A stretch of 33,060 nt of DNA from Planctomycetota bacterium (GCA_017885385.1 JAFNGF010000023.1:1-33060), one strand, 5' to 3'; positions 982-32,500 are shown, numbered from the stretch's first letter. Translations and numbers: made by a program. The notes: a model not told the origin generated them from the sequence alone.

Positions 982-2976
982 TCACTTTCGCCTTACAGCT
1001 ATTATAGCCTCTTTTTGCGTAGGAGGCATGGTAAGTTTTGCCAAAATCCAGAGTTCCGCAACGACAGTTGCAAGGGCTAAGGGCATCATCGCATATCCAC
1101 CGAAGTCGTGGAACACTTTTTCCCAGTATTCTCCACTTACGACCGTAAAGGCAAGTGCCGTGATTGCCAACCGCGTCGTGTTACACAACAAAGCTACCGG
1201 TAGGCTCGAAGCAAAAACAATCAGCTTTTCCCACCATGTGCGCTTGACTAATAGGACCACTAAGCCGCTGATAACAAAAAAGGCAGTGACCATCCTGAGG
1301 CCATTGCAGGCCTCAGCTACCGCCACGCTTGCACTGCCGATATGAATGACATTGCCTTCTTGCATGACACTATAGCCCATCGTCTCCAGGCAGAATACTG
1401 CTGATGAGGTGGCCCATTCCTGCAGCGGTAAGGCAATAGCTGCCTGGATTCGGTTCGGCCAGGGCAACATTAAGCATAGAAACAGCAGCACAGTAGATAC
1501 TCTTCGCAAAAGCGGCCAGCCGAACAGAAGCAACACCAGGGCAGCGACACTTAGAGCAATAGATAAGTTCTCAGCCGAACTGTAGATGAGGGCAAGGCCG
1601 GAAAGTCTGACCGCCTGGGCGCCGACGAAGAAAAGTATGCCCCAAAGAGACGGCCTTATCCGGCATTGAGCAAGATCGTTGTGCCTCGACCATAAAATGT
1701 AGACAGCCAAAAACGGCACTAAAAGGCCGCTGGAATATTCATCGCTTCTCTGCCACATCTGCCAAAGCTCAACGACGCCTCGCCAGTAGGACCAGAGAAG
1801 GGCGACCAAAACAACGCCCATTGCAAGCCCGGGAATGAGCTGGGCTTTGTGCCCGTCAACCCAGGCTGGTAGCTTTGCGTTGATTCCAGCAAGTTGAGGT
1901 GGCGATGTAATTCGCAGTTTGCTTGTCGTGTTCTTTACTGCCATAAAGGCCTTGCCAGCGCATTGTAGTATTCCCGGTGCTTTGAACATTATAGACTCTT
2001 CTTCTACAATCGTATTAGCGGGCACAACGGCGTGGTAGTCAATTAAGCACCGTTGGATTTGGCAATTCGGACCAATCGTGGCCTCATCCCAGAGTGCGCT
2101 ATTTACAACCACACTACCCTGGCCGATCGTGACGCCTCGCTCAATGATTGCTGGCCCAACAATAACCACGTCCTTTGATATCTGGGCGCCATCCATTATA
2201 GCAACTGGGCCGCAAATTCGCACACTTGGATGTATGCTCACGTTATCCGCCATCCACGCAGTTTGCGAATCTGTTCGTTTGCAGAGATTCAAACCTGTGT
2301 CTGCGCCTGGGCCGTTTTCAAGGTAATTAGCGATGGCATTTAAGTAACTCTGCCGATCTCGAAAGTTCCCTGCAGGCTTTGGCAATGTTACAGTATGAAC
2401 GGTTTTGCCAACTCTGATCATTTCACGAATTAATCCTTCCTTGATGTCAAAGTACCCTTCTTTAGGTACATGTTGCAGGATAGCGGGGTTACAGACGTAG
2501 ATACAGGAGCCCTGGCCCGTAAGCTGGCTATTTTCTTGGTTCGGATTTAACATCACCGTCAGGTCCGCCCCACCATCGCGATGGGCCTGCAATAAAACAT
2601 CGATTTTGGGAGGCGATATTATCGTAGCTGGGAACACTATGAATACCGCATCTGTTTCATTGTCAGCAGCACCGCGGATACATCCAGCAGTACCAACCGG
2701 CAGCGGTTCGTCCAAAAACTTCAACTCTAAACGATTGTCAACGTGAATCGAATCTGCCAACAACGAGCTGTCGCCGGCCGAACAAATAGTGACTTGTCTT
2801 AGTCCTTGATCTGCGAGAGAAGTTAGCATACGCTCAAGCGCAGGTCGCCCCGACACCGGCCACAACGCCGTTGGCAGGCGCCTCGCTAACGGACACATAG
2901 TAAAATCCCGGTTTCCCGCGAGAATCACCGCTTTGACCTTTTGTCTTTTGAGTAATTGCCTGCGCATCATCACCAT
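982..2976 (-). CDS. Fusion protein: nucleotidyltransferase-like domain + left-handed beta-helix region + C-terminal exosortase (EpsH/Xrt family)
   Basis: N-term VKAVILAGNRDFTMCPLARRLPTALWPVSGRPALERMLTSLADQGLRQVTI (NTP_transferase-like), aa ~240-335 hexapeptide-like repeats, C-term multi-TM with AEACNGLRM (Cys557), NTTRLAITA (Arg602), FHDFGGYAMMPLA (His623), the exosortase Cys/Arg/His triad. Confidence 0.88.
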   Translation of the reverse strand: MVMMRRQLLKRQKVKAVILAGNRDFTMCPLARRLPTALWPVSGRPALERMLTSLADQGLRQVTICSAGDSSLLADSIHVDNRLELKFLDEPLPVGTAGCIRGAADNETDAVFIVFPATIISPPKIDVLLQAHRDGGADLTVMLNPNQENSQLTGQGSCIYVCNPAILQHVPKEGYFDIKEGLIREMIRVGKTVHTVTLPKPAGNFRDRQSYLNAIANYLENGPGADTGLNLCKRTDSQTAWMADNVSIHPSVRICGPVAIMDGAQISKDVVIVGPAIIERGVTIGQGSVVVNSALWDEATIGPNCQIQRCLIDYHAVVPANTIVEEESIMFKAPGILQCAGKAFMAVKNTTSKLRITSPPQLAGINAKLPAWVDGHKAQLIPGLAMGVVLVALLWSYWRGVVELWQMWQRSDEYSSGLLVPFLAVYILWSRHNDLAQCRIRPSLWGILFFVGAQAVRLSGLALIYSSAENLSIALSVAALVLLLFGWPLLRRVSTVLLFLCLMLPWPNRIQAAIALPLQEWATSSAVFCLETMGYSVMQEGNVIHIGSASVAVAEACNGLRMVTAFFVISGLVVLLVKRTWWEKLIVFASSLPVALLCNTTRLAITALAFTVVSGEYWEKVFHDFGGYAMMPLALATVVAELWILAKLTMPPTQKEAIIAVRRK

Positions 2977-3414: not shown

Positions 3415-4551
3415 TCAGTCTGCTGTCAGAACCTCTCCGCCGTCAGTGTCATTATCCAGGATTTCCTCGCTTAACAGACCTGACTCAAGAATGATTTTTG
3501 CCAAACCCTCGCCCACAATTCGGCAGCCGAGCGGAGTAAAGTGACCGTCCGACCGTTCCCAGTAAAGTATCTTACCGTTATGCTGCTTGAATGATTCCAC
3601 CGGACAGAACACTGTAAAGTGTCTATCTTCTGCAAATTCCTCCCATGGGAATTTTGATATGTGTTCTGTTCGGCTTCGCCAAAATGGAATATCAAGAATT
3701 AAGAAGTTGGCTCCGTGAGAAATGCACTGCTGTCTGATTTCCTCCAGAATTGCTATTGTCAAGTGCCTCTGGTATTCCAATACCACTTCGGTGGCGTCAC
3801 TTTCGTTTGGAGATTGTGCTGAGCTGGCCGGATTGGACAGAATTCGTATTGTAGGGAGGATTTTATATTTCACTAAATTGGCCGCCTTGTCACGTACAAG
3901 GGTGTACAGGTGTAGGTGTTCGCCTACAAAGCGATAAATCTTGGACCTAAACAAAACTTCCTGTAGTTTTGTGGCTGGCAAATAGGTTTTGCCACGGCGA
4001 ACTAAGCGGCCGTCTTCCAGCCCGAACAGATCTGCTCGAATGTTGTCGTCAAGGTCTGAACCATGCCAGGCAAGCAGAACAAGGTCAGGCTCGTACCGAA
4101 AACCCTCTTCTCTTAGAGTGATCAGTTCCTCAGCATTTCCGTGACCCGAGACCGAGAGGTTTACAACTTCACATCTTATTCCGTTTTTTTCAAGAGCCTT
4201 TTGCATTTGGCTGGTGAAGGTATCTTGTATATCCACGCCATAACCCATTCCGAAAGAGTCCCCCAGCACCACTATTCTCTTTAGTCCGGGCGGTTTTTCG
4301 TAGGGTATCTCGCTGTCGGCACGGATACCTTTCGAGTTTGTCCGAATGTTAATGCGATAATCAGGTGTGACATGCCAGTAGCTGCAGTTGGGCTCGTTGC
4401 CTCTTATCCCGTAATCCGTGGGGCGCACGTAACGGGGAAGAATCGACTGTGGTGCAAAGACGCGAAGGAAAACTTCTGCAGCAAGCAGGCAATATGCAGC
4501 GACGAATAGTGTTTTTGCAATCCGTTGCCATATCCAGGTTGTCAATCTCAT
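3415..4551 (-). CDS. SGNH/GDSL-type hydrolase, membrane-anchored, probable O-acyl transfer partner
   Basis: N-terminal TM; block I VVLGDSFGMGYGVD; C-terminal DGHFTPLGCRIVGEG. Start taken at MRLTTWIWQ (CAT at 4549-4551) rather than the ORF-track start 4596, which overlaps the upstream gene. Confidence 0.75.
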   Translation of the reverse strand: MRLTTWIWQRIAKTLFVAAYCLLAAEVFLRVFAPQSILPRYVRPTDYGIRGNEPNCSYWHVTPDYRINIRTNSKGIRADSEIPYEKPPGLKRIVVLGDSFGMGYGVDIQDTFTSQMQKALEKNGIRCEVVNLSVSGHGNAEELITLREEGFRYEPDLVLLAWHGSDLDDNIRADLFGLEDGRLVRRGKTYLPATKLQEVLFRSKIYRFVGEHLHLYTLVRDKAANLVKYKILPTIRILSNPASSAQSPNESDATEVVLEYQRHLTIAILEEIRQQCISHGANFLILDIPFWRSRTEHISKFPWEEFAEDRHFTVFCPVESFKQHNGKILYWERSDGHFTPLGCRIVGEGLAKIILESGLLSEEILDNDTDGGEVLTAD

Positions 4552-4564
4552 GTCCTTTGCTTCC

Positions 4565-6238
4565 CTAAAATGCAAAGTATACGAATTCCTTACCACCGCT
4601 CTCTGCCAAACTCAGAACCGACATAATCACGAATAACCAGACATTTAGACGTATAAACCACGGCAATCGCGATAAGGGATTTAATGTCCCGGTCAGACCT
4701 TGAATGGCTTGAAACAACACGAGGAACCAGCAATAGAATACGAGTTTGCCGAAACAACTTGTCGCCTCAGTTGACAGACTTGGATGTAGCAAGATAGATT
4801 GCGAGAAAACCCCTACGGTGTTGAGGTTTCGGGCACGAAACAAGACCCAGCCGGCACAACTCAAATGGAACATAAAGGCGCATTGGATAGCTGAAACCCA
4901 CCATCGTGGTGTTTCGCCGTCGGAATTGCGAGTAAGAGTATGATGTAGAGTAACAAGTATGCCTTGAAACACTCCCCAGAGGACAAATGTCCATGCGGCA
5001 CCGTGCCACAACCCACATAACAAGAACGTGACCATCATGTTACGGGCTGTTTTACAAAGGCCGTAGCGACTGCCGCCCAGCGGGATATACAGATAGTCTC
5101 GCAGCCAACTTGAGAGGCTGATGTGCCAGCGTCGCCAGAAGTCGGATGGGTTCCTCGCAAAATAGGGAAGATTGAAGTTAAGTCTGACGTTAAACCCCAA
5201 CAATTGGGCAACACCGCGTGCGATGTCGGTATAGCCTGAGAAGTCACAGTAAATCTGGAAGGCAAAAGCATAAATCGCTGCCAATAACCGAATGCCGTCT
5301 TGCGGGACCGCTAATGCTGAAGCAGGGTTGTCGAATGGGGCGAAGGTTGTGTTTACAATCTTGGCCAGATTGTCAGCAACTACCATTTTTTTGTATAGCC
5401 CCCAGATGATAAGCCATATACCTTCTCGTAAGTCACAGGACTTTATCGCACGCGGTTTTTGAAACTGAGGTAAAAGAGTTGTTCCTCGTTCGATAGGTCC
5501 TGAAAGGACCAAAGGAAAAAATGTAGTAAAAAGTGCTATGTCGAGCAGAGAGTCATTCGCCTGACTTGTTCGGCGGTAAACATCTATGACGTAACCCATT
5601 GTCTGGAACGTGTAAAAGGATATGCCTATAGGCATTATGATGTTGAGCGTTTCGGTATTCACTGAGATACCGGCGATGGAGTGAACCAGGGTGCGGAACG
5701 TATCTACAAAGAAGTTGCAGTACTTGAAGATTCCAAGCACGGTCAGGTTAATTGTTATGCTGAATACGAGGAAGAATTTTCGTCTATGGTTGTCTCTTAA
5801 ACGGCAAAGGAACGGGTAACTGATATTGATAAGAACTATCGCTGCTATGATACCCAGTGTGAGGATATAATGCTGTGCATCGGCATAAACAAGATTATTC
5901 CAGTCCACTGTTAGTAAAGGACGCCATTTCGGAAGCGAGAATTTCACAGCGTTCCATTTTAATCCCAGGAAGAGCATGACCGCTAAGATACAGAATCCCG
6001 ATGCCCGAGCACGTTGCTTGCCTGTCATTTGTCCCCTATCTATCGATAGAGCGCAGCAGTAGGCAACTACACTTGACAGCGCTATCAGCACCAGAAAGCG
6101 GACATCCCACCAGCCATAAAAAACGTAACTTGCAGCCAGAAGCAGCAGATTCTGCAACCGATACGAACGGCGCAACGACCAGTAGAAAACAAAGACAATG
6201 ACGAAGAAAACTTCAAATGCTATACTATTGAATGACAT
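4565..6238 (-). CDS. MBOAT family membrane O-acyltransferase (AlgI-like)
   Basis: Multi-TM; FYTFQTMGYVIDVYRR, DFSGYTDIARG, NPSDFWRRWHISLSSWLRDYLYIPLGGSR, LLCGLWHGAAWTFVLWG: characteristic AlgI/MBOAT motifs. Confidence 0.93.
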   Translation of the reverse strand: MSFNSIAFEVFFVIVFVFYWSLRRSYRLQNLLLLAASYVFYGWWDVRFLVLIALSSVVAYCCALSIDRGQMTGKQRARASGFCILAVMLFLGLKWNAVKFSLPKWRPLLTVDWNNLVYADAQHYILTLGIIAAIVLINISYPFLCRLRDNHRRKFFLVFSITINLTVLGIFKYCNFFVDTFRTLVHSIAGISVNTETLNIIMPIGISFYTFQTMGYVIDVYRRTSQANDSLLDIALFTTFFPLVLSGPIERGTTLLPQFQKPRAIKSCDLREGIWLIIWGLYKKMVVADNLAKIVNTTFAPFDNPASALAVPQDGIRLLAAIYAFAFQIYCDFSGYTDIARGVAQLLGFNVRLNFNLPYFARNPSDFWRRWHISLSSWLRDYLYIPLGGSRYGLCKTARNMMVTFLLCGLWHGAAWTFVLWGVFQGILVTLHHTLTRNSDGETPRWWVSAIQCAFMFHLSCAGWVLFRARNLNTVGVFSQSILLHPSLSTEATSCFGKLVFYCWFLVLFQAIQGLTGTLNPLSRLPWFIRLNVWLFVIMSVLSLAESGGKEFVYFAF

Positions 6239-6240
6239 CC

Positions 6241-7011
6241 CTAGTTCTCAGCTAGATCGTAGTTTTGCAACAGTTTCTCTAATATGGGAACTATAGAATT
6301 ATTAATCGCTTGGTAGCCTGCCGAATTCAAATGAAACGTGTCTCGTGCGTACTCCGGTTTTAGAGTCTTGCCGACAGACAAGATTGGATCACAATTGACC
6401 ACTGTCACTCTCGGGCCACCCAAGCCTCTGATCATTGCATTAGTTTTCTCCACCGCCTCGCGGATTCCGTCCGACCAAATCAGCCTGTAAAGAAGTCCAA
6501 CTGTACCAGGAGAGAATATGGTCAGAACTACCACATGGGTATTGTGTTCCGTCGTCTGCTTGACTATAGTCCTCAAGTTCTTCTGGCACGTCTCAGTAAT
6601 TTCGTCCTTGCGCTTAGGAAAGACACCTATGGTCTTGAGGTCATTGATTCCCACTTGTATAACCACTACAGACGGCCGTAGTCGAATGATGTCTCTATCT
6701 AATCTGAGAATTGTTTGGGCGGTAGTCTCACCACTGACGCCGCGGTTCAGCAACTGACAATTCGGGACACAAGGTAGAGGGTCCCAGTAGGCGATCCTCG
6801 AATCACCTAACAAGATAACCCTTGCTTTTCCCGCCTGAGGCGGTTGCCGTTGGAGGTTTTCTGCCGCGAAGCTCCTGGCGCTCGTCGGATCAAGCCGAAC
6901 CATTTGAAGTTCACGGTAGAGTCTGGTAACCTGTCGATAAAGAATGATATTAACCAGGCCTGAGAACAGGAGGCACAATACAAGCACAAATGGCACAATC
7001 TTAGATCTCAT
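6241..7011 (-). CDS. SGNH/GDSL hydrolase, N-terminal membrane anchor
   Basis: VILLGDSRIAYW, RGVSGETTAQ, IQVGINDLK, DTFHLNSAGYQ: SGNH blocks I, II, III, V. Confidence 0.85.
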   Translation of the reverse strand: MRSKIVPFVLVLCLLFSGLVNIILYRQVTRLYRELQMVRLDPTSARSFAAENLQRQPPQAGKARVILLGDSRIAYWDPLPCVPNCQLLNRGVSGETTAQTILRLDRDIIRLRPSVVVIQVGINDLKTIGVFPKRKDEITETCQKNLRTIVKQTTEHNTHVVVLTIFSPGTVGLLYRLIWSDGIREAVEKTNAMIRGLGGPRVTVVNCDPILSVGKTLKPEYARDTFHLNSAGYQAINNSIVPILEKLLQNYDLAEN

Positions 7012-7969: not shown

Positions 7970-9051
7970 ATCCCTAACCGTCTTTGAATTGGGCGTAGGA
8001 GAATCTGCGGCCAGAAAATTGGCTGGTAATGGACGAACCTCTTTGCGATGTCCAGCCATAAGCTATGTCGTGATTGGGTCTCTAAAGTCTTCAGTTCTGA
8101 TGTGTATTCTTTTTCATACCTTTCTGTGCCGATGGGCTGTTGTCTCAAGATGTCGCATCGCCGCATTGTTTCTTTATGCAATTCATTTTTCATTTCGCCC
8201 GTGGCAAGTATAGGCCGATAGTCTTCGTCTCTGAGTATAGGAATCGCTTCCCATTTAATGATTCTTTTATCTGCGATTATTATGCTGAGTATTATAGACC
8301 AATCGGTGTCTTTGAAGTGACTGTCAAAGATGAAGTTACCCAGACTATAAGCAACCAAGAAATTGTCGGCACTATCAATACCCTGTACAACATGGGAATG
8401 ATGACCTATGATTAGTAAGGCACCTGCATCAGCAAATTGCCGCGCTACTTTTCTTTGCCATATGCTCGGACGGTCTATTAATTCATCGCCCCAATGAACT
8501 GAGACTATCACAAGATTATCTTTGGCTGCTTTGGCTTCTATTGTCTGGATTACATTATCCAGATTGCTGTTGAAAGCATACTTGCCGTTGTGGAAGCAGG
8601 CCCCGATTACAGCAACTGGTTGGTCGCCGAACCTCATAGATAGAGGTTCATTCCCCATTTGGAAGCGACCATTTTTGCCCGCGCCGACTGTTTTTACCCC
8701 GGCCTTTTCCAATTGCTGGACCGTGTCGACCGCAGATTCAAGACCTTGCTCAAGAATATGATTGTTGGCAACATGTGCTACTGTTACTCCCCACTTCGCA
8801 AGATATGCAGCCGTTGTCGGACGGCCTCGCATGTGCAGACTACGCAGGCTGTTTTGCTGGCGACCGATATCAGATAGAACACACTCCAAATTGCAGAGTA
8901 CCATATCGTGTGAAGCGAAGACATCGACGATCTCACGCGGCAAAAAATCGCTGCCAAACTTGTCTAATCCGGAGGCGACACCACATCCGAGCAGGTGAAA
9001 TGAGTCTCCACACATTGTATCACCAACACAGGCTATCTTCAGCGCACCCAT
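7963..9051 (-). CDS. CapA family protein (poly-gamma-glutamate/capsule synthesis, metallophosphoesterase fold)
   Basis: KIACVGDTMCGDSF, LCNLECVLSD, ANNHILEQG, VSVHWGDE, IIGHHSHVVQGI, YSLGNFIFDS: CapA motifs. Confidence 0.9.
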   Translation of the reverse strand: MGALKIACVGDTMCGDSFHLLGCGVASGLDKFGSDFLPREIVDVFASHDMVLCNLECVLSDIGRQQNSLRSLHMRGRPTTAAYLAKWGVTVAHVANNHILEQGLESAVDTVQQLEKAGVKTVGAGKNGRFQMGNEPLSMRFGDQPVAVIGACFHNGKYAFNSNLDNVIQTIEAKAAKDNLVIVSVHWGDELIDRPSIWQRKVARQFADAGALLIIGHHSHVVQGIDSADNFLVAYSLGNFIFDSHFKDTDWSIILSIIIADKRIIKWEAIPILRDEDYRPILATGEMKNELHKETMRRCDILRQQPIGTERYEKEYTSELKTLETQSRHSLWLDIAKRFVHYQPIFWPQILLRPIQRRLGIW

Positions 9052-10271
9052 CAGCTAATTTCCTCTGTCGGTTGCCTTACAGGGTGGAATTTGCTGCTCT
9101 GTTTCATTGCGATTGCTTTTTCAATAAGCTCGGAGATTTTTTCCACATGCGTATCCCAGCTATGTTGCCCGGCAATTTCAATTCGCTTTCGGGCCCGTTC
9201 CGGGGTATCGTTACGCAACTCCCATCGAATAGCGTCGGCAAATTGCTCCTTATTATAAGCAATGCTGATAACGTCGGAATACTGCTTTGTTTCTTCGATC
9301 GGAACTGAGACAATTGGTTTGCCGGAGGCCATATATTCAAACATTTTCAGTGGATTGCAGCATTTTATCCACTCGCTCATTATCCATTGCAGCAAACATA
9401 CATCGAAACACGCGCACAACTGGCGAACCTTTTCGTAAGGCATCCGACCTAAAAGGTGTACGTTTTTCAGCCGAGCCAACTCGGAGTAATCACCGCCGGT
9501 AATCTGGCCGGCAAATACAAACGAAACATCCCGCAACTGTCTGGCACAGTACAGCAGCAGTTCAATATCATTGTGCGCAGTCATCGTTCCGAAATATCCT
9601 GCAATTGGCCGGGGTACATTGGCCAATTCTTCAACCGGTTCACTCTTCTGTGCAGCCTCTTGGAACAGATCAAAATCTACTCCGTGCGGTATGTAGAACA
9701 CGTTTTCTCTCTGCGTCTGTTTCCTATCGTACAGTTCTTTGGACACACAGATCATCAAATCGCTCTCATCGGAAATGCGTTTTTCGCGTTGGTTCAACAA
9801 TAAGGAATTGCCTGTGTAGGAATCGCTGGCAAACAGGTCAGAGACATGATATACCTTCAGCGTAGAATTGAACCAGCTCATCATGTTGGCTGCACGGATG
9901 TTCTCCAGCCAAAGTATCGGTTCCGATATCCCGATACGCCAACAAGCTGTTTTTAGCTGTAGTTTAAGCAGAGAATTGTTAAGAATATCTACTATCTTTC
10001 TGCCCTGGAGGGGAATGAAGATAGGGCTGAATACGTAGAGGTTCTTTTCCGGCTGGCGCAGACACTTGGCGATGCTCTTCACCTTTCTGCCGATTCGCGC
10101 CACGAATCCCTTTTTGCCCTTTGCCGCTCTGACCATATCGGAACCGAAAGGATTTATGTAGAGAACCCTGTTGCTTTTGGCAAATCTCCGCATCAAGTGC
10201 GTAGTGCAACTAGGGTTCATACCCCACCAGTCACTTGGGGCAAAACATATTATGTTATAGTCTGATAACAC
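9051..10271 (-). CDS. Glycosyltransferase family 1/4 (GT-B)
   Basis: IPHGVDFDLF, IAGYFGTMTAHNDIELL, VHLLGRMPYEKV, NPLKMFEYMASGKPIVS: GT-B C-terminal motifs. Confidence 0.85.
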   Translation of the reverse strand: MLSDYNIICFAPSDWWGMNPSCTTHLMRRFAKSNRVLYINPFGSDMVRAAKGKKGFVARIGRKVKSIAKCLRQPEKNLYVFSPIFIPLQGRKIVDILNNSLLKLQLKTACWRIGISEPILWLENIRAANMMSWFNSTLKVYHVSDLFASDSYTGNSLLLNQREKRISDESDLMICVSKELYDRKQTQRENVFYIPHGVDFDLFQEAAQKSEPVEELANVPRPIAGYFGTMTAHNDIELLLYCARQLRDVSFVFAGQITGGDYSELARLKNVHLLGRMPYEKVRQLCACFDVCLLQWIMSEWIKCCNPLKMFEYMASGKPIVSVPIEETKQYSDVISIAYNKEQFADAIRWELRNDTPERARKRIEIAGQHSWDTHVEKISELIEKAIAMKQSSKFHPVRQPTEEIS

Positions 10272-10294: not shown

Positions 10295-11665
10295 CTAATG
10301 GTGCTCCGCCATGACAAAAGAGAGGAACTTGCCGCTCGGCGTCTGGTTTATTTGACGAGTCGGTCGAATGCTGAGGTTGAATTCATCGGGGAGCTCTCTT
10401 TCCAACAATTCGCGGAGTTGTTGCGCGTGCTTCTCCGAGAAACCCTCAGCCGGGACATACTCCAGCACGACATCACTGGCGCTCTCCTGAATGACCTGTC
10501 CGGCCAGTACCGGCATCTCGTACATCCCATACAGCACATGGGCAAGGAGGCACTCAATCGCCGTCGCCCCCAAACGCCTGCCGGAGGGCGTGACCATGGC
10601 ATCGCTCTCACGTCCTACAATACGAGCAATCATGGGGAAGTGACGTCCGCAAGGACACTCTTCATCGCTGGGGAGAACAAGGTCGCCCATCTTATACCGG
10701 ATGAGGGGCATGGCCATGTTCCAAAACCCCGTCGCGATGATCTGACAGCAGTCCTCGTTCGGCGGATCCGCCCGCTCCAACTCGGTCAGTCCGTACTCAG
10801 GCAGAATATGGTAACGACCATGCTCACACGTGTGTATGTAGCATACACGCTCTGCACTGCCGTAGAAATCAAAAACAGGGCAATCAAAGGCTTCTGAGAT
10901 AACTTGCCTCTTGCCATCGTCGAGGGTCTCCGCAGTGGTCAGGACACACTTCAGTGGCAGGCGTATACCCTTCTGCAGACACCCTCTGCCCAAGACAGAT
11001 GCCGCCGACGGATAGGCCACCAGCACCTTGACGCCGTAACAGCGCATGGCATCCACAAATGTTGGCACAACATCCGGTGACAGGTGAAACGCCGACAGCG
11101 TTAACTCCTTCATGCTTGCATCGTAGACATAAGGCTTATGCAGTTTCTCGCTTGGGGAGGCAACGACACGGCCCATCATGTAGGCCACGCTGTCCCTACG
11201 ACCCACACTCGCCCAGTCGAATTGCCGTCGGACGAATGCGTGTTCGTTTCCTATCGAAAACAAATCGCGCCTTAACGGCACCGGCAATCCTGTCGTCCCA
11301 CCGGTGTGGGCGGTATTGAGTAGGAACTGCGGATACCGGCAGGAGACAATACCATCGCCGATTTCCTTGAGGTCCTTCTTGCTGATGATGGGGAACCGCC
11401 GGATATCCTCCAGTTCCCGGATGTCCTGCGGGTGAATCCCCAGCACGTCCATCTTGCCCCGCCAGTAGGGCACGGTCCTGTAGGCGTGCGCGACCACCTT
11501 CTTCAGCAGCGACAACTGGATCTCACGCAATTGCTCAGGCTTATACCACTGTGTCTTGCTCAACCACCGCCGACGGACCCAAAACGTACCTGTGTACCTT
11601 TTGACCAAGAGAGTCTTACAACCACGGAGTGTTGCCTTGACGTCTCTAAGCGTTCGAATGTACAT
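10295..11665 (-). CDS. Adenylate-forming ligase, phenylacetate-CoA ligase (PaaK)/CapK-like
   Basis: P-loop TAHTGGTTGLPVPL; VFDFYGSAERV; IRYKMGDLV...CPCGRHFPMIARIVGRESDAMVTPSGRR. Start taken at ATG 11665 (MYIRTLRD...); ORF track extends to 11731. Confidence 0.82.
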   Translation of the reverse strand: MYIRTLRDVKATLRGCKTLLVKRYTGTFWVRRRWLSKTQWYKPEQLREIQLSLLKKVVAHAYRTVPYWRGKMDVLGIHPQDIRELEDIRRFPIISKKDLKEIGDGIVSCRYPQFLLNTAHTGGTTGLPVPLRRDLFSIGNEHAFVRRQFDWASVGRRDSVAYMMGRVVASPSEKLHKPYVYDASMKELTLSAFHLSPDVVPTFVDAMRCYGVKVLVAYPSAASVLGRGCLQKGIRLPLKCVLTTAETLDDGKRQVISEAFDCPVFDFYGSAERVCYIHTCEHGRYHILPEYGLTELERADPPNEDCCQIIATGFWNMAMPLIRYKMGDLVLPSDEECPCGRHFPMIARIVGRESDAMVTPSGRRLGATAIECLLAHVLYGMYEMPVLAGQVIQESASDVVLEYVPAEGFSEKHAQQLRELLERELPDEFNLSIRPTRQINQTPSGKFLSFVMAEHH

Positions 11666-11818
11666 GTCAACCCTCTTCTTGGCAGAGAAGCCTAATGGGC
11701 TAGACCTTGTTCTTCCCGACTCACGTAGCACTGCCGGGCATTGAGCGGCCCTGCTGGCTGACTCAACTCCACCCTTGTGGGATCGTCCCTCTCGATCTCT
11801 GATTTTCCAAATAGGAGT

Positions 11819-12739
11819 CTAACGAAAACTGAACGGATAGCCGAGAAGCGTCATGAGAAGCTCAATACCTCTCCTGGCTGTCTGCAGGTTGTGATCAAGG
11901 ACTGGGTTCAGACCCACGAGATCGATGGATACGACACGGCAGTGGGACGCAATCTGATGACAGATGTAGGCTGCCTCTCTCATATTGAATCCATAAGGTG
12001 AGGGCAGACCTACTCCAGGCGCCACGGTCTCGTGCAAAGAATCAAGATCGAGACTGACATGTACACCATCTGTCTGATCTGTAACGGTTCGTAAACACTC
12101 CCTGACAGTATTGGCTAATCCTTGTTCAATCACATCGAAAAGCGTGAACATGCGTATCCTGTGGTGGTTGACAAAATCAGCTTCACCCGGATCGATATCA
12201 TGCACCCCCAGGAGACAGATGTTCTTGACGTCGACCTTGGGACCGGGTTTTCCAATGTTGACCAGCAGACTCGGTCCAAAGCCGGTAATAATCGCAACGG
12301 GCATGCCGTGCACGTTTCCAGAGGGCGATGTCTCTGGTGTATTCGCGTCTGGATGGGCGTCAATCCACAGACAACCTGCCCGGCATCCAGCCAAGGCAAC
12401 ACCCGCGAGACAGCCGATGGCAAGACTGTGATCTCCCCCCAGACATACGGGCGTTCGCTCCCTCTCGACAGAGTCTGCCACCACACGCGACAACCTCTCG
12501 CAGTAATCTGCAATTAAACCGACATTGTGAGCGGATGTACGGAGATACTCTGCGGAGGCAGAACACGACACGGAAGCAGGCAGGTCAATGTTGCCTATAT
12601 CGCGAAAACACAGTCCTCGTTGGCGGGCAACAGCGAAAAGGCCCGCCTCGCGGAAAGCATCGGGTCCCAACTTCAGACCGAGTTCTTTCACACCCAGATC
12701 TACGGGAACACCTATGAAATCGACATTCTCACATCGCAT
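11819..12739 (-). CDS. Arginase / ureohydrolase family protein
   Basis: CLGGDHSLAIG, LWIDAHPDANTP...GNVHGMPVA, HVSLDLDSLHETVAPGVGLPSPYG: the Mn-binding H, DxHxD and DxD motifs of ureohydrolases. Confidence 0.9.
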   Translation of the reverse strand: MRCENVDFIGVPVDLGVKELGLKLGPDAFREAGLFAVARQRGLCFRDIGNIDLPASVSCSASAEYLRTSAHNVGLIADYCERLSRVVADSVERERTPVCLGGDHSLAIGCLAGVALAGCRAGCLWIDAHPDANTPETSPSGNVHGMPVAIITGFGPSLLVNIGKPGPKVDVKNICLLGVHDIDPGEADFVNHHRIRMFTLFDVIEQGLANTVRECLRTVTDQTDGVHVSLDLDSLHETVAPGVGLPSPYGFNMREAAYICHQIASHCRVVSIDLVGLNPVLDHNLQTARRGIELLMTLLGYPFSFR

Positions 12740-12796
12740 TTGATGGCCGTCCAGACATGGCTATATGGAGGATTTCGTGTTTGGCCTGCCACTATT

Positions 12797-13954
12797 CTAC
12801 AGCAAGCTGGTCAATGGTGTGTACTCCAGTCGCTTCTTCTTAGCCGAGTATTCATGCGTGAGTTTTCCTCGGTGACACATCACGGCTTTTCGAAGACCCA
12901 GATCCTTTTCGATTGCCTGGTGAAATCCCGCACTGAGCAGCTTTATGTACGGGAACGTTGCGTCGGTCAGCAATCGCGTCGCGGTGACAGGTACAAGAGA
13001 GGGGATGTGATCAGGGTTGTAGTGAATCACCCCGTTTTCGACGTAGGTTTCTGTCAAGGAATCCGAAGACACACATGTTTCTGCAAGATCTTTGTCACAG
13101 GCAGTCGCATCGCAGAGTATACTGTTAGTAGTCATTTGCCCCAAGTCTTCCCGCCTGATTAGATACTCGCACTTTTCCTTCGGCAGCGTGGCCCGTCTGA
13201 CTGCTGCGAGGATCACAATATCCGCGGATGGCAGATGTTGTCTCAACGCCGCGGTTGACTTGTCAGGGTCTCCCTCATCAAATCTCACTACGTCTATCTG
13301 GCAATGCGACATGACCTCCGGGGAGACATATTGTGCGAGGCGTCGATTGAGCGTCTCGGGGTGTTTGTCCACAACCACAATACCAAAGCGATTCATGGCA
13401 AACACGTTGATGGCATTGCAGCCAATGTGCCCTGCGCCAACAACCATCGTTTTCGCACGCGGCCAGTGCCGAAGGTAGCTGCCACCGAGCATGCCCTTAT
13501 GCTCCACCAGAAGATTCATCGCCTTTCTTGCAAATGCGGCGCCGGTCAGTTCGCTCATGGGCTCAAGCAATGGGAGCCGCCTGTCTCGATCAACCCACTC
13601 GTATGCTATTCCAGTCACGCCGGTATCGACGATGTGTCTTATGTTCGCTGGTGCGATATTCTCATCGAAATGCAGATATGTGAACAGAACGTGCTCGGGC
13701 CCGTAGAAGGCGCATTCAGTCGGCAACGGGCACTTGACTTTCAGAATCAGTTCGGATCTCTTATACAATTCCTCTTGGGAGACGATCCGAGCCCCAGCTT
13801 GCTCGTAGTCACTATCCGCGAATCCAGCCTTCAATCCGGCTGTCTCCTCAACGGAGACGCTGTGGCCCATGGCAACCAACTCAGATACATGATCAGGCCG
13901 TAAGGCCACACGTCCTTCGTCGCGCTTTGTCTCTTTTGGCACTCCTATTTTCAT
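12797..13954 (-). CDS. Alanine dehydrogenase / PNT family oxidoreductase (divergent)
   Basis: MKIGVPKETKRDEGRVALRPDHV, LILKVKCP, LFTYLHFDEN, AYEWVDRD, Rossmann VVGAGHIGCNA...VVVDKHPE, C-terminal VIHYNPDHIPSLVPVTATRLLTDATFPYI. Start taken at 13954 (MKIGV). Confidence 0.83.
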   Translation of the reverse strand: MKIGVPKETKRDEGRVALRPDHVSELVAMGHSVSVEETAGLKAGFADSDYEQAGARIVSQEELYKRSELILKVKCPLPTECAFYGPEHVLFTYLHFDENIAPANIRHIVDTGVTGIAYEWVDRDRRLPLLEPMSELTGAAFARKAMNLLVEHKGMLGGSYLRHWPRAKTMVVGAGHIGCNAINVFAMNRFGIVVVDKHPETLNRRLAQYVSPEVMSHCQIDVVRFDEGDPDKSTAALRQHLPSADIVILAAVRRATLPKEKCEYLIRREDLGQMTTNSILCDATACDKDLAETCVSSDSLTETYVENGVIHYNPDHIPSLVPVTATRLLTDATFPYIKLLSAGFHQAIEKDLGLRKAVMCHRGKLTHEYSAKKKRLEYTPLTSLL

Positions 13955-14380
13955 TCGGTTCACCTCAGAAAGACCACCGGCCAAACCCCACGGCGACAAT
14001 CACAACCGAGATTCGGGCAACCCAGCAGCATACGTTCCTCTTGACAAATCATTCTTGGTCGATGACAGAAACAGACTCCCATTACTCATTCGCTCATATG
14101 AAAGACCTCACTCACGAAACTTATGTTCCCCATCCCTCTCGCGAGGCGACGCGAGCCCCGCGCGGACCGACCGCACCGGTACCTGTAAAACAAAGAATAC
14201 GCCGGTCGATAATGCAAAACCAACTTTCAACACGGTGTCATCTCCTAAAAGCTACCATTATGTTTCCAAACGTTTCCACCACTGAATAAGCCATTCACGT
14301 GCACAACTTCAACCAGGCAACACACACAATACGTCTGCCTTTCCACCGAAGACTATAACCTTGTATTACCTGTGAGGGTG

Positions 14381-15568
14381 CTACCGATCCTCGCGAATGA
14401 AGGCCACAACTTTTTCAGCAATAAACGCAATGTGTTCGGAATTTAGCTGTGGGTGCACAGGCAGTGCTAAAATATGGTCTTTGAGAAAACAGGCATCTGG
14501 AAACTCGTCCCAAGGGAGAGCCGGGTGATACCCAGCCCACCATTCTATAGCAGCGATGGACAGTTCGTTGAGCTTTCGGTACAAGTAGACACGGTTTTTA
14601 ACAATCACGGGAAAATACAGTGGACAGACACCTTCGGGCAGTGTCTTGAAAAGAGGTTCTATCCCTTTGGCTTCAGCTAACATATTCAGCAATAGTGTAA
14701 AGTTATTTCGCCGTTTGGTTACTATCGTTGTGATGTCGAAAGTCTTTAGCAGGCGTTTAGTTAATCTGGAGATAGCTTTATCCGTGAAATCTTCGTCGTA
14801 ATAAAAGCTTTTGGGCACATCAGGCGGCAGAGCCTGGTGCGGGGGTTCCATATATCTTGTGTACGCCTGATATCTTTCCAACAATGGCCAGAACAGTGGA
14901 AACAATCTTGTGCCGGAAGCCGAGCGCAAAGAGTTTCTTTTCAGGAGTGATAGTGTCTCCTTTGCTACTAGTGAGAACGGTGCCCGGTGAAGCTCCCAAT
15001 CGTTTTTTGCAAGGTCTGTGCTGTTGATTACAAGTGCCCCACCATCTGGAACAGGCAACGACTTTGGAAAGCTGAAGATTGATATATCGCCTGTTGAGCC
15101 AAGTTTAGTTGAGCCATCACGACTGAATAACGCCAATGCACAATCTTCGATAAGGTATATATTTCTGTCTATGCAAAGTCTTCTAATCTCATTTATCGGC
15201 TGTGGAAAGCCAAAGTAGTGGGTTACATATACGGCCCTGGTTCTCTTGGTGATACGGCTTTGGAGATCAGCAAGGTCAATCAGGCCTGACTTTTGGACAC
15301 GGTAAAGAACCACTGAAACACCATAAGTAACCAGTGGGTCAATTTCTGCTCCACAGTTGTATGCAGGAACCAGGACCTCGGTCTCTGGCGATAGATGGAG
15401 AAACTCACATGCCCGACGAATAGCGGTTCTGCCTCTGTGCACATAATATATCCGCCCTTTGGGCAACCATGTAGTTGCACTATGTTTGGAGTGTTGACCA
15501 GCCAATGAAATAAGACTAAAAGAATGATGTCCACAGTATAATATGTTTGTCTCTTCCTGCATTATCAT
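14381..15568 (-). CDS. DegT/DnrJ/EryC1/StrS family PLP-dependent aminotransferase
   Basis: RTAIRRACEFL...VLVPAYNCGAEIDPLV...VYVTHYFGFPQPINEIR...LIEDCALALFSRDG...STGDISIFSFPKSLPVPDGGALV (PLP lysine in SFPK). Confidence 0.87.
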   Translation of the reverse strand: MIMQEETNILYCGHHSFSLISLAGQHSKHSATTWLPKGRIYYVHRGRTAIRRACEFLHLSPETEVLVPAYNCGAEIDPLVTYGVSVVLYRVQKSGLIDLADLQSRITKRTRAVYVTHYFGFPQPINEIRRLCIDRNIYLIEDCALALFSRDGSTKLGSTGDISIFSFPKSLPVPDGGALVINSTDLAKNDWELHRAPFSLVAKETLSLLKRNSLRSASGTRLFPLFWPLLERYQAYTRYMEPPHQALPPDVPKSFYYDEDFTDKAISRLTKRLLKTFDITTIVTKRRNNFTLLLNMLAEAKGIEPLFKTLPEGVCPLYFPVIVKNRVYLYRKLNELSIAAIEWWAGYHPALPWDEFPDACFLKDHILALPVHPQLNSEHIAFIAEKVVAFIREDR

Positions 15569-15642: not shown

Positions 15643-16767
15643 CTACGTACTTTCGCGGCGTAGGTTGGGAATACACATTTTTTTCTTGATTTTGTAGGGT
15701 AAACCTGTGGCTGAGCGCCAGCCGCAGGATAGAAAGTTGAAGCTCTTATGCACCGAGTAAATAAAGGGCTGGCATACACGTATGTAATGCCCGAGGCCAT
15801 ACACAGGCTGTGGGCTGAACTTTTTTTTGAATTCATAGACGAGGTACTTCTCATTAGATGGATCGGCGTTATCTGCGTAGCCTTCTACATCCAACCAGGA
15901 ACACCCTTTCTCTTTTGCCCATTTTATACCCGACCACCATAGCACCGGTCCTATGGACAGGTTTGAGAGTTCTCTGAGAGGCTTCGGTGCAACTACATAG
16001 CGCGCCGTATGAGCTGTCGTGGGTCCTCTGACTATCCAAAGCCCGCCAAGGAACATCTCTCCACCGAAAGCGTTCAAAAGAACACCGAGTTGTCGCTTTT
16101 CGAGTATGTGTTGAAAAGTTGCCTTAAATTCATCATAGGAGACTGGTATGATGCCACGTTCTCGATTCATACGATCGAGATACCGAAAAAACGTTTGAGC
16201 TTCGTCTATACTGCCTGCGGCCCGGATCGCCACATTTTGCCTTTCCGCCCGGCGAATCTCCCTGCGCGCGCTTTTGGAAAATGAACAGAAGATATCGTCG
16301 TCACTACGGCGAATATCCACCAAGCCGGTCGAATAACCGCTATCAGTTGTGGGGGCATCTGCCGAATAACCTAACTCGTCGAGAACTGCTACAACATCGT
16401 GTGCCTCCGGGAAAATCCAATACGGTGAGACGCAAATCCTGCCGACCATGAGAGATTTAAACAGTGGTTCGATCCCCCAGAGGAACTCCTTTGCCCACCC
16501 AGGCTCGTCGAAAATTGGTCCACGCTGGCAAATGGCCTCGAAAGAGAATCGGCGGCTCCAAAGAAAGGGGTGAATACTAAAAACTCCCGCACATACAATG
16601 GTACCGTCCGATTCTCCATATATATAAATGGGAATTCTACCCTTTGCTCGCTCCACCTGACCAAACAGAAAATGCTGTCGCGGATGAGCGTGCCGGCATT
16701 TGCACCAGAACTGTTCCCACCGACTTTTTTGGGTTTGGTCTAATTCATAACAAGAATGTAACTTCAT
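15643..16767 (-). CDS. FemAB-like / GNAT-fold acyl- or aminoacyl-transferase
   Basis: FSKSARREIRRAERQNVAIR, FFRYLDRMNRERGI, AHTARYVVAPKPLRELSNLSIGPVLWWSGIKWAKEKGCSWLDVEGYADN: FemAB/lipid II:glycine transferase-like architecture. Confidence 0.75.
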   Translation of the reverse strand: MKLHSCYELDQTQKSRWEQFWCKCRHAHPRQHFLFGQVERAKGRIPIYIYGESDGTIVCAGVFSIHPFLWSRRFSFEAICQRGPIFDEPGWAKEFLWGIEPLFKSLMVGRICVSPYWIFPEAHDVVAVLDELGYSADAPTTDSGYSTGLVDIRRSDDDIFCSFSKSARREIRRAERQNVAIRAAGSIDEAQTFFRYLDRMNRERGIIPVSYDEFKATFQHILEKRQLGVLLNAFGGEMFLGGLWIVRGPTTAHTARYVVAPKPLRELSNLSIGPVLWWSGIKWAKEKGCSWLDVEGYADNADPSNEKYLVYEFKKKFSPQPVYGLGHYIRVCQPFIYSVHKSFNFLSCGWRSATGLPYKIKKKMCIPNLRREST

Positions 16768-16809
16768 GCAGCTCTCTTGACCGACCTAGTATCAAAAATT
16801 GATGTCGTT

Positions 16810-18093
16810 TTACGAGAAAAGTATTTGGGACTTTATCCATGCTTTCCAACGAGGCCCTCGTTCAAAAGGCAAACGCGGCGCAATCCTGCGAAACCATATC
16901 TTATTATAGCATACGTCGAGCAGCCAAAAAAGTCCCCGACAAATGTATATCCGCATAATTGCGGACATTCCCGACCTAAAAATTAGGATACAGTGTATTG
17001 GAAGAGTCTCGCCGCCGAGATGCAATTTGTGCTCATACATGCCCTGCATACTGTCTATATACTTTGCATTCTCCTCTATGGCTTTTTTAACCTGCTCGAC
17101 GAGAATAACCTTTCCTAAATCCAGATTGGCAACTGCCTGCGACACCAGGCGGGCATCCAAAAATGAATGGTATCTGTCTGCGAATTTGTAGCAATACTTA
17201 TACCCCACGGGCGTGTCCCCCAGCCTAACTTCCAAAAGTCTCAGGCGATTGCGCTTTAGTTGAACAGCGGCAACTTCCCGATGAAAATGGTGAGCATTGG
17301 GCCAATCCTGAAAATGCCCTCCTTTCCCTACACCGTGCCATCGTGCTTCATGCATTTGCACAAAGTTGTCAAAAAGTTCTGGAAAATTTTCCTGCGAAGC
17401 AAAGGTTGAAATCAGTTCCTTGCCCTCGGAATTGATTGCTTTGTAGCTTCTCCTAATGTTGTATCTTTGCTGCTTCGGCAGCCTGGCGATATAATCTTCC
17501 CAGCTGCCTGCCAATTTGAAGTATGTCTGGACACCACATTTTTTCTCCTGAACGTTGTAACCATTCCCAAGTATTTCCTTACACAGACACCCAACTTTTT
17601 CGCATTTATTCTTACCAAATAGACCGGCGAAGGGGCCCAAACATAGCACGTCCCAACGGTAGTGGGAAACCAACTCACAGAGAAAGATCCGCAGAACTTC
17701 GTGCAGAAAATCATTGTGTATAGGCAAACTTACTGTAACAAGCGTAAAATCTGTTCCGACAAGCTTGATTGCTCGCACACAAGCCGGCCCAAGCCATATT
17801 TTCTCCAAAAAGACCGGAATAATCCCAACCAACGTAGATTCGTGGCGGAAGATAAAAACCCTCACGTGTCGTTTTCCACCATAGTACTTCCACCATGTCC
17901 TGCACCAATCATAAGTGAGAAATACTTCACCACCGACGGCTTCTATGAAATCGTCCCATTCCTGCTGCATCGGTGCCAGTTCATCAAGGCTCTCAAACAC
18001 CTCCGCTGCGATATGTTTTTCACATGGACTATCTATATCGGTGCTACGTCCGCATCCAACGGGTGCCCTTTCTTCTCGCCAGAGGTTCTGCAT
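16810..18093 (-). CDS. GNAT-fold acetyltransferase, CelD/BioF2-like
   Basis: WDDFIEAVGGEVFLTYDWCRTWWKYYGGKRHVRVFIFRHESTLVGIIPVFLEK; RLPKQQRYNIRRSYKAI; LLEVRLGDTPVGYKYCYKFADRYHSFLDA. Confidence 0.8.
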   Translation of the reverse strand: MQNLWREERAPVGCGRSTDIDSPCEKHIAAEVFESLDELAPMQQEWDDFIEAVGGEVFLTYDWCRTWWKYYGGKRHVRVFIFRHESTLVGIIPVFLEKIWLGPACVRAIKLVGTDFTLVTVSLPIHNDFLHEVLRIFLCELVSHYRWDVLCLGPFAGLFGKNKCEKVGCLCKEILGNGYNVQEKKCGVQTYFKLAGSWEDYIARLPKQQRYNIRRSYKAINSEGKELISTFASQENFPELFDNFVQMHEARWHGVGKGGHFQDWPNAHHFHREVAAVQLKRNRLRLLEVRLGDTPVGYKYCYKFADRYHSFLDARLVSQAVANLDLGKVILVEQVKKAIEENAKYIDSMQGMYEHKLHLGGETLPIHCILIFRSGMSAIMRIYICRGLFWLLDVCYNKIWFRRIAPRLPFERGPRWKAWIKSQILFS

Positions 18094-18096
18094 TTG

Positions 18097-19137
18097 TTAG
18101 ACCCGTACTTTTTTTAGTAGACGGTGTGCCCCCTCGGCTGCATGCCAAAGCCTCTCGACGATAGAGTTCTTGTACATCTCGAAAGCTCCCAGGTAAAAAG
18201 TCTCGTCGCCACCCATACGTTTCTTGAAACGATATCCGTCGGGATTCCTGTCTGGGTCAACGCCGCCTAGATCATAACGTTCCATGCCCAAGCTCTTCGC
18301 TATAAGATATGCTCTCCACCAAAGTAAATACGACGTCCCGCAACTCAGCCCAGTTTCATTGCTTGCTGTTAGTATTGGCACCGCGGTAGTGCCGAAATGA
18401 GTAGTAGCATGAGCTGTTATGGGCTGACCGTCGTAATATGCAATAAGGACTATTGCTTTGTCGTTTTGTGCCAGCATCTGCTGTGTCTTGGCGTACTCCG
18501 CGGAATCAACTCCCTCGAAACCCTTCCGTTCTTTTGCCCCGGCATACAAATTTTCAAGTATTTCGAAGAATTCATGGCTGGTTCCCTGCCTTACCTCAAT
18601 CAGCATTTTTTCTGCCTTTTTGAGGATCCTTCGACTTTCCCGGTGAATCCTGGCGAGTATTTCTTCCTCAGGCTCTTTCAGCGATACTATAAACGTGCGG
18701 TAAGGAGCGACCCTTTGGTTTTTCTTGAATCCGCTGAATTCCAGCAAGCCTCCAATTTTTTCCCCAACCTCATCATTGCGCAAATTGGGCACGACCCTCA
18801 AAACGTTTATACTCATGTGCGAACACGAATCTCGCAACTGCTTTAGTGCATCGGGTAAACAGTCCAACTCGCCGCGTTCTCGCAGCATCAGCGGCCCAGA
18901 CTGCACATAACCGATTCTAATGCCGAGGGGCCTTATGGCCTTTATACGCAAATGACACATCAACACTGCTTCGCCATTCTCGTCCTTGATGATTATTCTC
19001 CTAACTTCTTGGCGGTCACTCTCGGCGCGCACCTGCTGATATGCCCAGGTTTGGTATATGCTATAGTCGACAAAACCGTGAGCGTATTGCTCCCATTGTT
19101 GAGCATCTATACTATCAATCAATATGGTGTAGTCCAT
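18097..19137 (-). CDS. FemAB-like / GNAT-fold transferase
   Basis: YSIYQTWAYQQVRAESD, RIHRESRRILKKAEK, VLIAYYDGQPITAHATTHFGTTAVPILTASNETGLSCGTSYLLWWRAYLIAKSLGMERYDLGGVDPD. Confidence 0.8.
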   Translation of the reverse strand: MDYTILIDSIDAQQWEQYAHGFVDYSIYQTWAYQQVRAESDRQEVRRIIIKDENGEAVLMCHLRIKAIRPLGIRIGYVQSGPLMLRERGELDCLPDALKQLRDSCSHMSINVLRVVPNLRNDEVGEKIGGLLEFSGFKKNQRVAPYRTFIVSLKEPEEEILARIHRESRRILKKAEKMLIEVRQGTSHEFFEILENLYAGAKERKGFEGVDSAEYAKTQQMLAQNDKAIVLIAYYDGQPITAHATTHFGTTAVPILTASNETGLSCGTSYLLWWRAYLIAKSLGMERYDLGGVDPDRNPDGYRFKKRMGGDETFYLGAFEMYKNSIVERLWHAAEGAHRLLKKVRV

Positions 19138-29544: not shown

Positions 29545-32500
29545 ATGGTAAACTTAGCCAGTGCACGTGGGCGGCTGCGCAGTAGCCATCGGCAGCCATT
29601 GCATAAATTTTCCGTATGCTACCTGTTAATCGCTGGCCTGTTTTTCATTACTCTTTTGGGTGACACGGCAGTCGCGGCAACTTATTATTGCGACGCCGTT
29701 AATGGCAACGACAGCAATCCTGGCACAAGCGAGCAGCCGTGGAAGACTGTGGCGTACACGTTGCGAACAAATTCACTAGTAGGGCCCGGGGATACAGTGT
29801 ATTTGCGAGGTGGAACTTATCGGGAACAGGTTGATGTAAAGAAATACGGTACTCCGAACAATTGGATTACGGTCAAAAGTTATCCCGGGGAGACGGCGGT
29901 CTTGGACGGAACAGATCCGGTTACTGGCTGGACGCAAGCAGCATCAAATGACTCTTATTTAACTGTGCAAGGGGCAGTTAATCCTCGTTATAATAATATT
30001 TACTGGACGCGGGTGAAAGCGTCTAATTTTCCTTCCAATCTATCCGACACTGTTTTTTTTGAGGATCGCGTAATGGGAAGGATTGCCAGCGATCCGGACC
30101 AGTCAGTAGGATTTGGAGAAGATACTGTTGAATTTAGAGGAGTAGGGGCTGCTTCAGGAGGTCAAAACGCATACCTTATTGACCCAAATTTAAATCAAAA
30201 TGATGACTATTGGAATGGGGCGTTTGTTCATATACATTTAATCAATGATAATGCCAGTACGAGCCATAGGACTGTGGCGGATTTTGTATCAGCCGACCAT
30301 AAACTCATATTCGATTCAAATCTGCCAGCGAATATACTTGCCAGTAGGGACGTATATCGCATTATAAATCATCCTCATATTCTTAATAGTGCGGGAGAAT
30401 TTTATGTTAGCAACATTGAGACTGTCGGTGGAACTGATTATCGCAGGATTTATTACTGGCCGAAGAACACGAGCAATTTGACGGACAAGATAACGGTAGG
30501 AACTCGCTCTCACGCTTTTGTATCAGTAACAGGAGTAAGTTATTATCTTAATATTGAAGATTTAACAGTTTTCGGTGCAAAAAATAACGGAATAGATATT
30601 GAGGGTAGCGGTGGGGCTCGTGGTTCTTACGTTACAGTCAAGAACTGTATTATAACGGATTGTGGGAATTTAGGGATTCTATATGCGGGTATGAATAATG
30701 TGCGGGCAGAAGGCAATTATGTGCATCGAAACGGCAATAATGGAATTATAGCCAGTGGTGTGGACCACTGTGTTTTTAAGGGTAATGATTGCGGCGAAAA
30801 TAAGGGCACAGGTATTGATTTTTATGACGTTACCAACGGTATGATTATTAACAACATTTTATCGGGGATTCGCGGGGGGCATGGTAATGGTACTGCCGTA
30901 TATGGAACAACTTCAGATATTACTTGCGAGGACATTTTAGTGGCAGGTAATCGATATAACAATACCAATATGGCTTTTAATCTGGTTAGACGATTGGTTG
31001 TTTTTGGGAATCTGTTTGCACAAAATCCAATTGGTGATACTTATGCTATAACGGCATGGTCCTCAAGATATGATGGTTACCAGGTATGGATGAATAATAC
31101 TGCGCCAATTGCGGTTACCTACGCCTTATTCTTACATAGAGGACAGCAGGAATATACAGATTTACCCTGCCATTATGTAGTAAACAATGTTTTTCACGGA
31201 TTGGCTCACGGTTGGCACCCTACAAAATGGGATGAATTTGACCCTAGTGATGTTATAGTGGAAGACCGGACGTATAATGTTTATACCTACTATAACTGGG
31301 ACCAGGGTACGGCTGAAGGTTGGACATTGCACGAAGGTGAACAGGATCGTCGTTCCACCCCACTGATGGACCTATTTGTTAATCCAACATATCCTGATGG
31401 GGACTATCGTACAAAAGAGAACAGCCCCCTGCGCAGCACGGGCAAAAATGTGCAAGGAATTCTTGCTGAGCTGGGGATTATCGCCAAGTTCCCGGAATAT
31501 GATTTTACGAAAGATTTGGCGGGCAATGCTTGGAATAGCAATCCTTCCATAGGCTGCTATGAATATCACGGTCCAGCGTTGGAAAACATTGGAGATAAGT
31601 CCGTATATGTGAATAAGTCGCTTAACTTCACAGTCAGTGCCACTGATCCTGATGCAGATCCCATAACGTATTCTGCTCAGAATCTTCCGAGTGGTGCAAC
31701 TTTTCAGGGTCAAACCTTCAGTTGGACACCGACAGGTGGGCAGGTTGGCACCTACAAGGTAACGTTTATTGCAAGCGATGGTTCAGAGCAAGATTCCGAG
31801 ACAATCACAATCACGGTGAAAAGTACCAATCAAGCTCCCACTGCCAATGCTGGGCCAGACCAGACGGCCATCGATTCTGACGGCAATGGAAGTCAGCAGG
31901 TGACTCTGAATGGGTCAGGTTCTACCGACTCGGACGGCACCATTCAAAGCTACGTATGGAGTGAAGGGGGTACTCAGATTGCAACCGGCGTAAACCCAAC
32001 TGTGACGCTGTCTGTCGGTCAGCATACCATCACGCTTACAGTCACAGATGACGGTGGTCTGACGAATACAGATACCGTAGTGATCACGGTCAATGAATCC
32101 GGCACCAATCAACCTCCTATTGCGAATGCTGGACCGGATCATACCGTTACCGATGCTGACGGCAACGGCAGTGAGCAGGTTACTCTGAACGGCTCAGGTT
32201 CTTCCGATCCGGGCGGCGCCATTCAGAGTTACGTATGGAGAGAAGGCGGCAGCCAGATCGCGACAGGTGCAAACCCAACTGTGACGCTGTCAGTTGGTCA
32301 GCATACGATTACCCTGACGGTTACCGACAATGGCGGTTTGACGGATACAGATACGGTGACAATTGCAGTTAGCGCGAGCAGCAGTACTGATAATAACCCG
32401 CCAAGCGTCACCAACTGCTTACCAACTCCTGACTCAATACAGGTGCCGTTGAACAATCTGATAACCTTACATGTTATGGATAATGGCAAGGGTGTCGATG

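Follow-up and report, generated by a model that had tools for sequence, protein, structure and literature searches.

Opine-type amino acids are known chemically as decorations of bacterial surface polysaccharides: alanopine is found on 4-amino-4,6-dideoxyglucose in the O-antigen of Providencia alcalifaciens O35, and N-epsilon-(1-carboxyethyl)-lysine in the O-antigen of P. rustigianii O14 (both as cited in PMC10609480). In the open-access literature we found no report on the genes responsible for the synthesis and attachment of these O-antigen opines, and no useful paper connecting opine dehydrogenases with the genes for O-antigens or capsules. The exosortase-associated exopolysaccharide (EPS) loci of Proteobacteria can carry an AMP-ligase. 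In this work we analysed a stretch of 33,060 nt (hereafter the window), one contig among the 436 of a fragmented Planctomycetota genome of metagenome type. Its minus strand carries an EPS operon with genes for an exosortase, Wzx, Wzy, glycosyltransferases, a pyruvyltransferase, deacetylases, and FemAB and GNAT proteins. Within this operon, a 426-bp non-coding gap (13955–14380) is followed in reading order by ald, encoding an NAD(P)-dependent dehydrogenase of the AlaDH/PNT family, arg, encoding an arginase-family protein, and lig, encoding a PaaK-like ligase. Our gene calls agree with the preliminary description of this DNA on the three consecutive minus-strand genes and on the exact length of the gap. 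We favour, with moderate confidence, the view that ald and lig form a functional pair that makes and activates an opine substituent within an exosortase-associated EPS operon. Such a product is plausible, given that opine-decorated O-antigens are known from the chemistry of Providencia.

The slot upstream of the PaaK-like ligase

The lig gene (10295–11731, minus strand) encodes a PaaK/CapK-like adenylating ligase that matches the phenylacetate-CoA ligase 4r1l (phmmer E 3e-15). All its NCBIfam PaaK-type matches lie below the cut-offs, and naming it a PaaK equivalog was rejected, the best score being 93 bits for a cut-off of 300. The protein has the core ATP-binding/adenylation motifs of the PaaK type and the C-terminal lysine; the motifs TGGTTG, FYGSAER, RYxxGD and GR and the C-terminal SGK are kept across its clade, apart from a few deviations in individual members. 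Translation more likely starts at the ATG of codon 23 (about position 11665, for a protein of about 456 amino acids), where the ribosome-binding site is better and where the homologues also start. In the order to which the source genome belongs, this ligase clade is present in 18 copies in 16 of the 161 genomes searched, window included; the 17 other copies, from 15 other genomes, are 42–57% identical to the window ligase. Matches at E<=1e-80 among 392 genomes of the phylum all come from members of this order. Outside the phylum the clade was looked for in plasmids only, whose relatives, at about 25–33% identity, are uninformative. The related ligases are found in EPS loci, most of which include an exosortase, and in the majority of cases the next gene is that for the same glycosyltransferase, in the window the GT4-type protein (PF13692) encoded by gt (9051–10271, minus strand), directly downstream of lig. 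On this distribution, the PaaK-like ligase is resident in the order and belongs to the core of its exosortase EPS loci. One such locus, L137:8705-13014 (genome G133), carries three tandem EPS ligase copies, which the tree does not place in a single group.

The three closest relatives of the window ligase (in genomes G060, G139 and G033; 54–57% identity) each have a different dehydrogenase gene directly upstream. The G060 gene (L131:8645-9655) encodes a homologue of N5-(1-carboxyethyl)ornithine synthase (CEOS), which lies in the CEOS clade with support of 100/100 and whose best plasmid matches are annotated as N(5)-(carboxyethyl)ornithine synthase. The G139 gene (L132:8724-9680) encodes a 318-amino-acid AlaDH/PNT protein and is preceded by ATPgrasp_ST genes. 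The G033 gene (L133:1512-2636) encodes an Octopine_DH protein (PF02317), for which the nearest solved structure is the N-(1-D-carboxylethyl)-L-norvaline dehydrogenase 1bg6 (E 2.7e-28). The four dehydrogenase-paired ligases, that of the window included, form one clade among the 18 copies (support 97/96) and share clade-specific residues, for example Ala at positions 239 and 244 of the window ligase. None of 500 shuffles of the dehydrogenase label on the ligase tree was as clustered as the observed distribution, a test that measures clustering on the tree and not independent events: the enzyme families differ, and the gain of the slot may have been single. No such dehydrogenase was found beside the ligase among the called open reading frames (ORFs) at the 14 other copies, where L134 begins at a contig end and L145 comes after a gap. 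Of the 161 genomes searched in the order, only 9 contain PF02317, with one match each; the sole copy of G033 is 13 bp upstream of the ligase, and none of the eight others, some of which are on short contigs, was seen beside a ligase of the clade. Given this rarity, a chance placement by the G033 ligase is unlikely. The occupation of one slot by different genes suggests a shared function, and the presence of unrelated opine-forming dehydrogenases beside one ligase clade supports a module that would make and activate an N-(1-carboxyalkyl) amino acid destined for the EPS.

The three window genes do not recur as a set. Recurrence of the trio, a check proposed in the preliminary description, was not seen: neither an arginase nor a close ald relative is found beside the other ligases. 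Of 60 relatives sampled, only one besides the window has a close ald, and at E<=1e-55 there is no match in the 392 phylum genomes. The locus L136 (genome G010) shares more than 10 syntenic genes with the window and has no arg, ald, degT or fem1; it keeps the last two of the FemAB, GNAT and FemAB genes, again with no dehydrogenase. As the ligase is core in the order and L136 has neither arg nor ald, the trio is not one mobile unit, and comparative gene content indicates that arg and ald fill a slot upstream of the core ligase. The nearest relatives of the window genes also differ along the locus, since lig is closest to its counterparts in G060 and G139 whereas the downstream genes pga and gt are closest to those of G010, which makes the window locus a mosaic.

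The products of ald and arg

The ald gene (12797–13954, minus strand) encodes a protein that has both the N and C AlaDh_PNT domains expected of an alanine dehydrogenase (AlaDH; PF05222 and PF01262) and is the sole AlaDh_PNT_N match in its genome. Assignment to AlaDH or to CEOS was nevertheless ruled out on cut-off, motif and tree. With the AlaDH model TIGR00518 the protein scores 200.7 bits, about half of the cut-off of 391.85, and the ANMP motif of AlaDH, around a conserved Asn, is replaced by DHIP. This motif follows the DHxP pattern of CEOS homologues, which have DHTP or DHSP in G060, E. coli and Streptomyces, while the Lactococcus type itself has PNTP. In the tree, ald belongs to a clade of its own (support 100/99) together with proteins of Planctomycetes bacterium GWF2_50_10, Mesorhizobium and Methylobacterium; it is outside the AlaDH clade (95/93), and the CEOS clade leaves it out as well. 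We infer that ald is an opine synthase.

Among the alternatives, the one that survives best, although unlikely, is that ald makes an ordinary amino acid, such as L-alanine from pyruvate, and that the ligase activates this same amino acid for an EPS amide, no opine being involved. Substituents of this kind are common on glycans (PMC10609480), and the protein is about 30–36% identical to alanine dehydrogenases, with their conserved Arg, Lys and His positions kept. The low model score, the replaced ANMP motif and the position outside the AlaDH clade nevertheless argue against it, as does the fact that the slot enzymes of G060 and G033 belong to opine-forming families and not to AlaDH.

The arg gene (11819–12739, minus strand; PF00491, E 2.1e-59) lies between ald and lig. 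The preliminary description read it as an arginase and proposed an ornithine- or alanine-derived substituent for the EPS; in the ornithine form of this pathway, arg would supply ornithine from arginine, ald would convert it to N5-(1-carboxyethyl)ornithine, and the ligase would load this onto the EPS. The protein scores 210.8 bits with TIGR01229, below the cut-off of 227.6, and its nearest solved structure is the Bacillus caldovelox arginase 1cev. Aligned with 28 relatives, it has intact motifs for the binuclear Mn ligands (GGDHS, DAHxD, DxD), the catalytic His and intact amino-acid-binding motifs. The position of rat Glu277, which we take from established structural knowledge to be the guanidinium-binding Glu of arginases, is Gly in arg and Glu in 28/28 of the other ureohydrolases compared, and the GTPVxGG loop reads GLPSPYG. 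The guanidinium pocket is thus remodelled, and the replacement of this Glu makes a supply of ornithine from arginine doubtful; plain arginase action is not borne out, and arg probably hydrolyses a related amino acid instead of being an ordinary arginase. In the other genomes of the order, the arginase family is represented at best by a match with an E value of 1e-12 and 28% identity. The carboxyethyl-ornithine route, which draws on the arginase-family gene between ald and lig, on its intact metal and amino-acid motifs and on the true CEOS homologue in the G060 slot, is therefore a poor candidate, less likely than the ordinary amino acid: besides the pocket changes, an arginase is found at no other locus of the ligase clade, and with ald outside the CEOS clade there is no firm case for carboxyethyl-ornithine itself as product. 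What stands of the earlier proposal is an EPS module with an amino-acid-derived substituent, for which the G060, G033 and G139 slots point to opine-type chemistry.

It is a little less probable again that arg and ald entered the operon by chance or as catabolic genes and have no role in EPS. Close relatives of both are nearly absent from the order, the syntenic L136 has neither, and some ald relatives are in catabolic-looking neighbourhoods. On the other hand, the same ligase clade is accompanied by an opine-type dehydrogenase, in the corresponding slot, in three more genomes, and no amino-acid catabolic gene other than arg and ald was identified among the annotated window genes.

Several observations weigh against pairing ald with the ligase in opine synthesis. 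The window ald is sister to AlaDH and not to CEOS, and its Mesorhizobium and Methylobacterium relatives are in catabolic- or transport-like neighbourhoods, in which an EPS context was not found. The pairing is seen in four loci only, all in one order. The role of arg is the weakest part of the account. Finally, the enzyme and EPS roles proposed at all these loci are deduced from sequence, in incomplete genomes and with homology-based naming. In favour of the pairing, the closest relative of ald, in G037, belongs to a second kind of polysaccharide locus, where its neighbours are ATPgrasp_ST, an asparagine-synthase-family protein and a glycosyltransferase; this ald relative matches a record (L023) of GWF2_50_10, a member of the same order as the source genome. 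At L147:14546-18683 (G037/GWF2_50_10) the ATPgrasp_ST gene, the ald relative and the asparagine-synthase-family gene are in a row, next to the glycosyltransferase gene and to a flippase-like ORF that also matches an ATP-grasp gene of G139. The G037 locus may be a variant of the module in which the PaaK-like ligase has no part.

If ald and lig act as a pair on an opine, the following pathway can be proposed. Using NAD(P)H, the ald protein would join an amino acid reductively to a 2-keto acid, yielding an N-(1-carboxyalkyl) amino acid, and the ligase would adenylate one of the carboxylates of this opine. One of the GNAT or FemAB proteins, or the ligase itself, would then move the opine onto the polysaccharide repeat as an amide or ester; the FemAB/GNAT/FemAB genes (15643–19137, minus strand; PF02388, PF13480) encode candidate acyl- or aminoacyl-transferases. 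The acceptor could plausibly be an amino sugar made with the adjacent DegT/DnrJ/EryC1-type sugar aminotransferase, encoded by degT (14381–15568, minus strand; PF01041, E 2e-27, residues 46–193). This protein has a PKS motif where the pyridoxal phosphate lysine is expected, and is a possible source of such an acceptor. The arg protein might serve as an accessory hydrolase on an arginine-like amino acid, probably not plain arginine.

Base composition and the other genes of the window

The preliminary description had counted by hand the GC content of single 60-nt lines, 35/60 (10441) and 36/60 (12301) in the trio and 26/60 (9301) and 30/60 (15001) in the flanks, and had concluded that the trio is a compositionally distinct, horizontally acquired island. 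These counts are exact on recount, and the contrast with the flanks is real: GC is 54.2% over 10295–13954, and 47.4% on average in the flanks (range 45.4–50.1% in 3660-bp windows). The trio is, however, not the odd part. The background of this genome, sampled as 20 contigs (about 143 kb) in 88 windows of 3660 bp, has a mean GC of 53.4% (standard deviation 3.8%), and 41% of the 88 windows equal or exceed the trio. Against 68 background genes, GC at third codon positions (GC3) is at the 81st percentile for lig, the 12th for arg and the 40th for ald, and at the 4th and 12th for the genes beside the trio, degT and gt, respectively. The compositional outlier is the low-GC EPS operon (about 47%), so that the island reading is inverted, and the agreement of trio GC and GC3 with the genome background deprives a foreign origin of support from composition. 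A recent arrival of the trio from a GC-rich donor, suggested by the sharp GC step at both flanks and by the lack of a close arginase in the order, is very improbable, as the background sample largely refutes the compositional argument, and the GC contrast was rejected as evidence of foreign descent. In the 426-bp gap, searches for sigma-70-like promoters, terminator-like sites and Rfam families found nothing.

The EPS locus is anchored by the exosortase (PF09721, E 3.4e-56), accompanied by polysaccharide genes. The exosortase gene (982–2976, minus strand) is a single ORF of 664 codons, whose product has N-terminal nucleotidyltransferase (PF00483) and hexapeptide (LbH) domains and a C-terminal Exosortase_EpsH domain; its homologues are near full-length in L134, L135, L136, L138, L142 and L144, and about half is covered in L137, L140 and L143. 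A GDSL-MBOAT-GDSL cassette at 3415–7011, likely involved in polysaccharide acylation, is common to the window and G139 (L132); its MBOAT and first GDSL genes have no match in the remaining compared ligase loci. Next to the EPS locus, a large plus-strand ORF (29545–33060), open at the contig end, encodes PKD, Ig-like and beta-helix domains and is a possible surface or exosortase-sorted protein.

Comparison with known systems

The exchange of opine dehydrogenases beside one ligase clade provides a concrete, testable genetic signature, from which one would expect the EPS of uncultivated planctomycete-type bacteria to bear an unusual, charged decoration. It also concerns two enzymes that routine annotation would misname, as arginase and as alanine dehydrogenase. 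More tentatively, at somewhat less than even probability, one PaaK-like ligase clade may be dedicated to opines and recruit interchangeable opine synthases, so that strains would differ in their EPS opine, the window adding an arginase-fold hydrolase whose new specificity would tailor the precursor.

The window enzymes resemble several described families. CEOS of Lactococcus, with its related proteins, belongs to the same AlaDH/PNT superfamily as ald, and its homologues in E. coli, Streptomyces and G060 share the DHxP motif; ald differs in length (385 amino acids, against about 313 for the Lactococcus type) and branches separately in the tree. In an EPS locus of an E. coli plasmid, a CEOS gene lies next to an ATP-grasp protein; this ATP-grasp and CEOS stretch (L148:7022-9098, plasmids NZ_AP027746.1 / strain ES7) is found in 2 of 5426 E. 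coli genomes. Alanine dehydrogenase has in common with ald the fold family and the Arg, Lys and His positions, and differs by the model score, the ANMP motif and the clade. The octopine/opine dehydrogenases (PF02317; 1bg6), which supply the G033 slot enzyme beside the same ligase clade, are of another sequence family, and a role shared by this enzyme and the window ald is suggested by the position in the slot. The arginase 1cev shares with arg the metal-site and amino-acid-loop motifs, while arg has Gly for the guanidinium Glu and a changed substrate loop. Like the exosortase (EpsH) EPS loci of Proteobacteria, the window combines an exosortase with EPS genes; it differs by its PaaK-type ligase, in one clade paired with an opine-type dehydrogenase. 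In Providencia O35 and O14, finally, an opine is carried by a surface polysaccharide, as we propose here, in different organisms and on different polymers; the comparison is one of chemistry.

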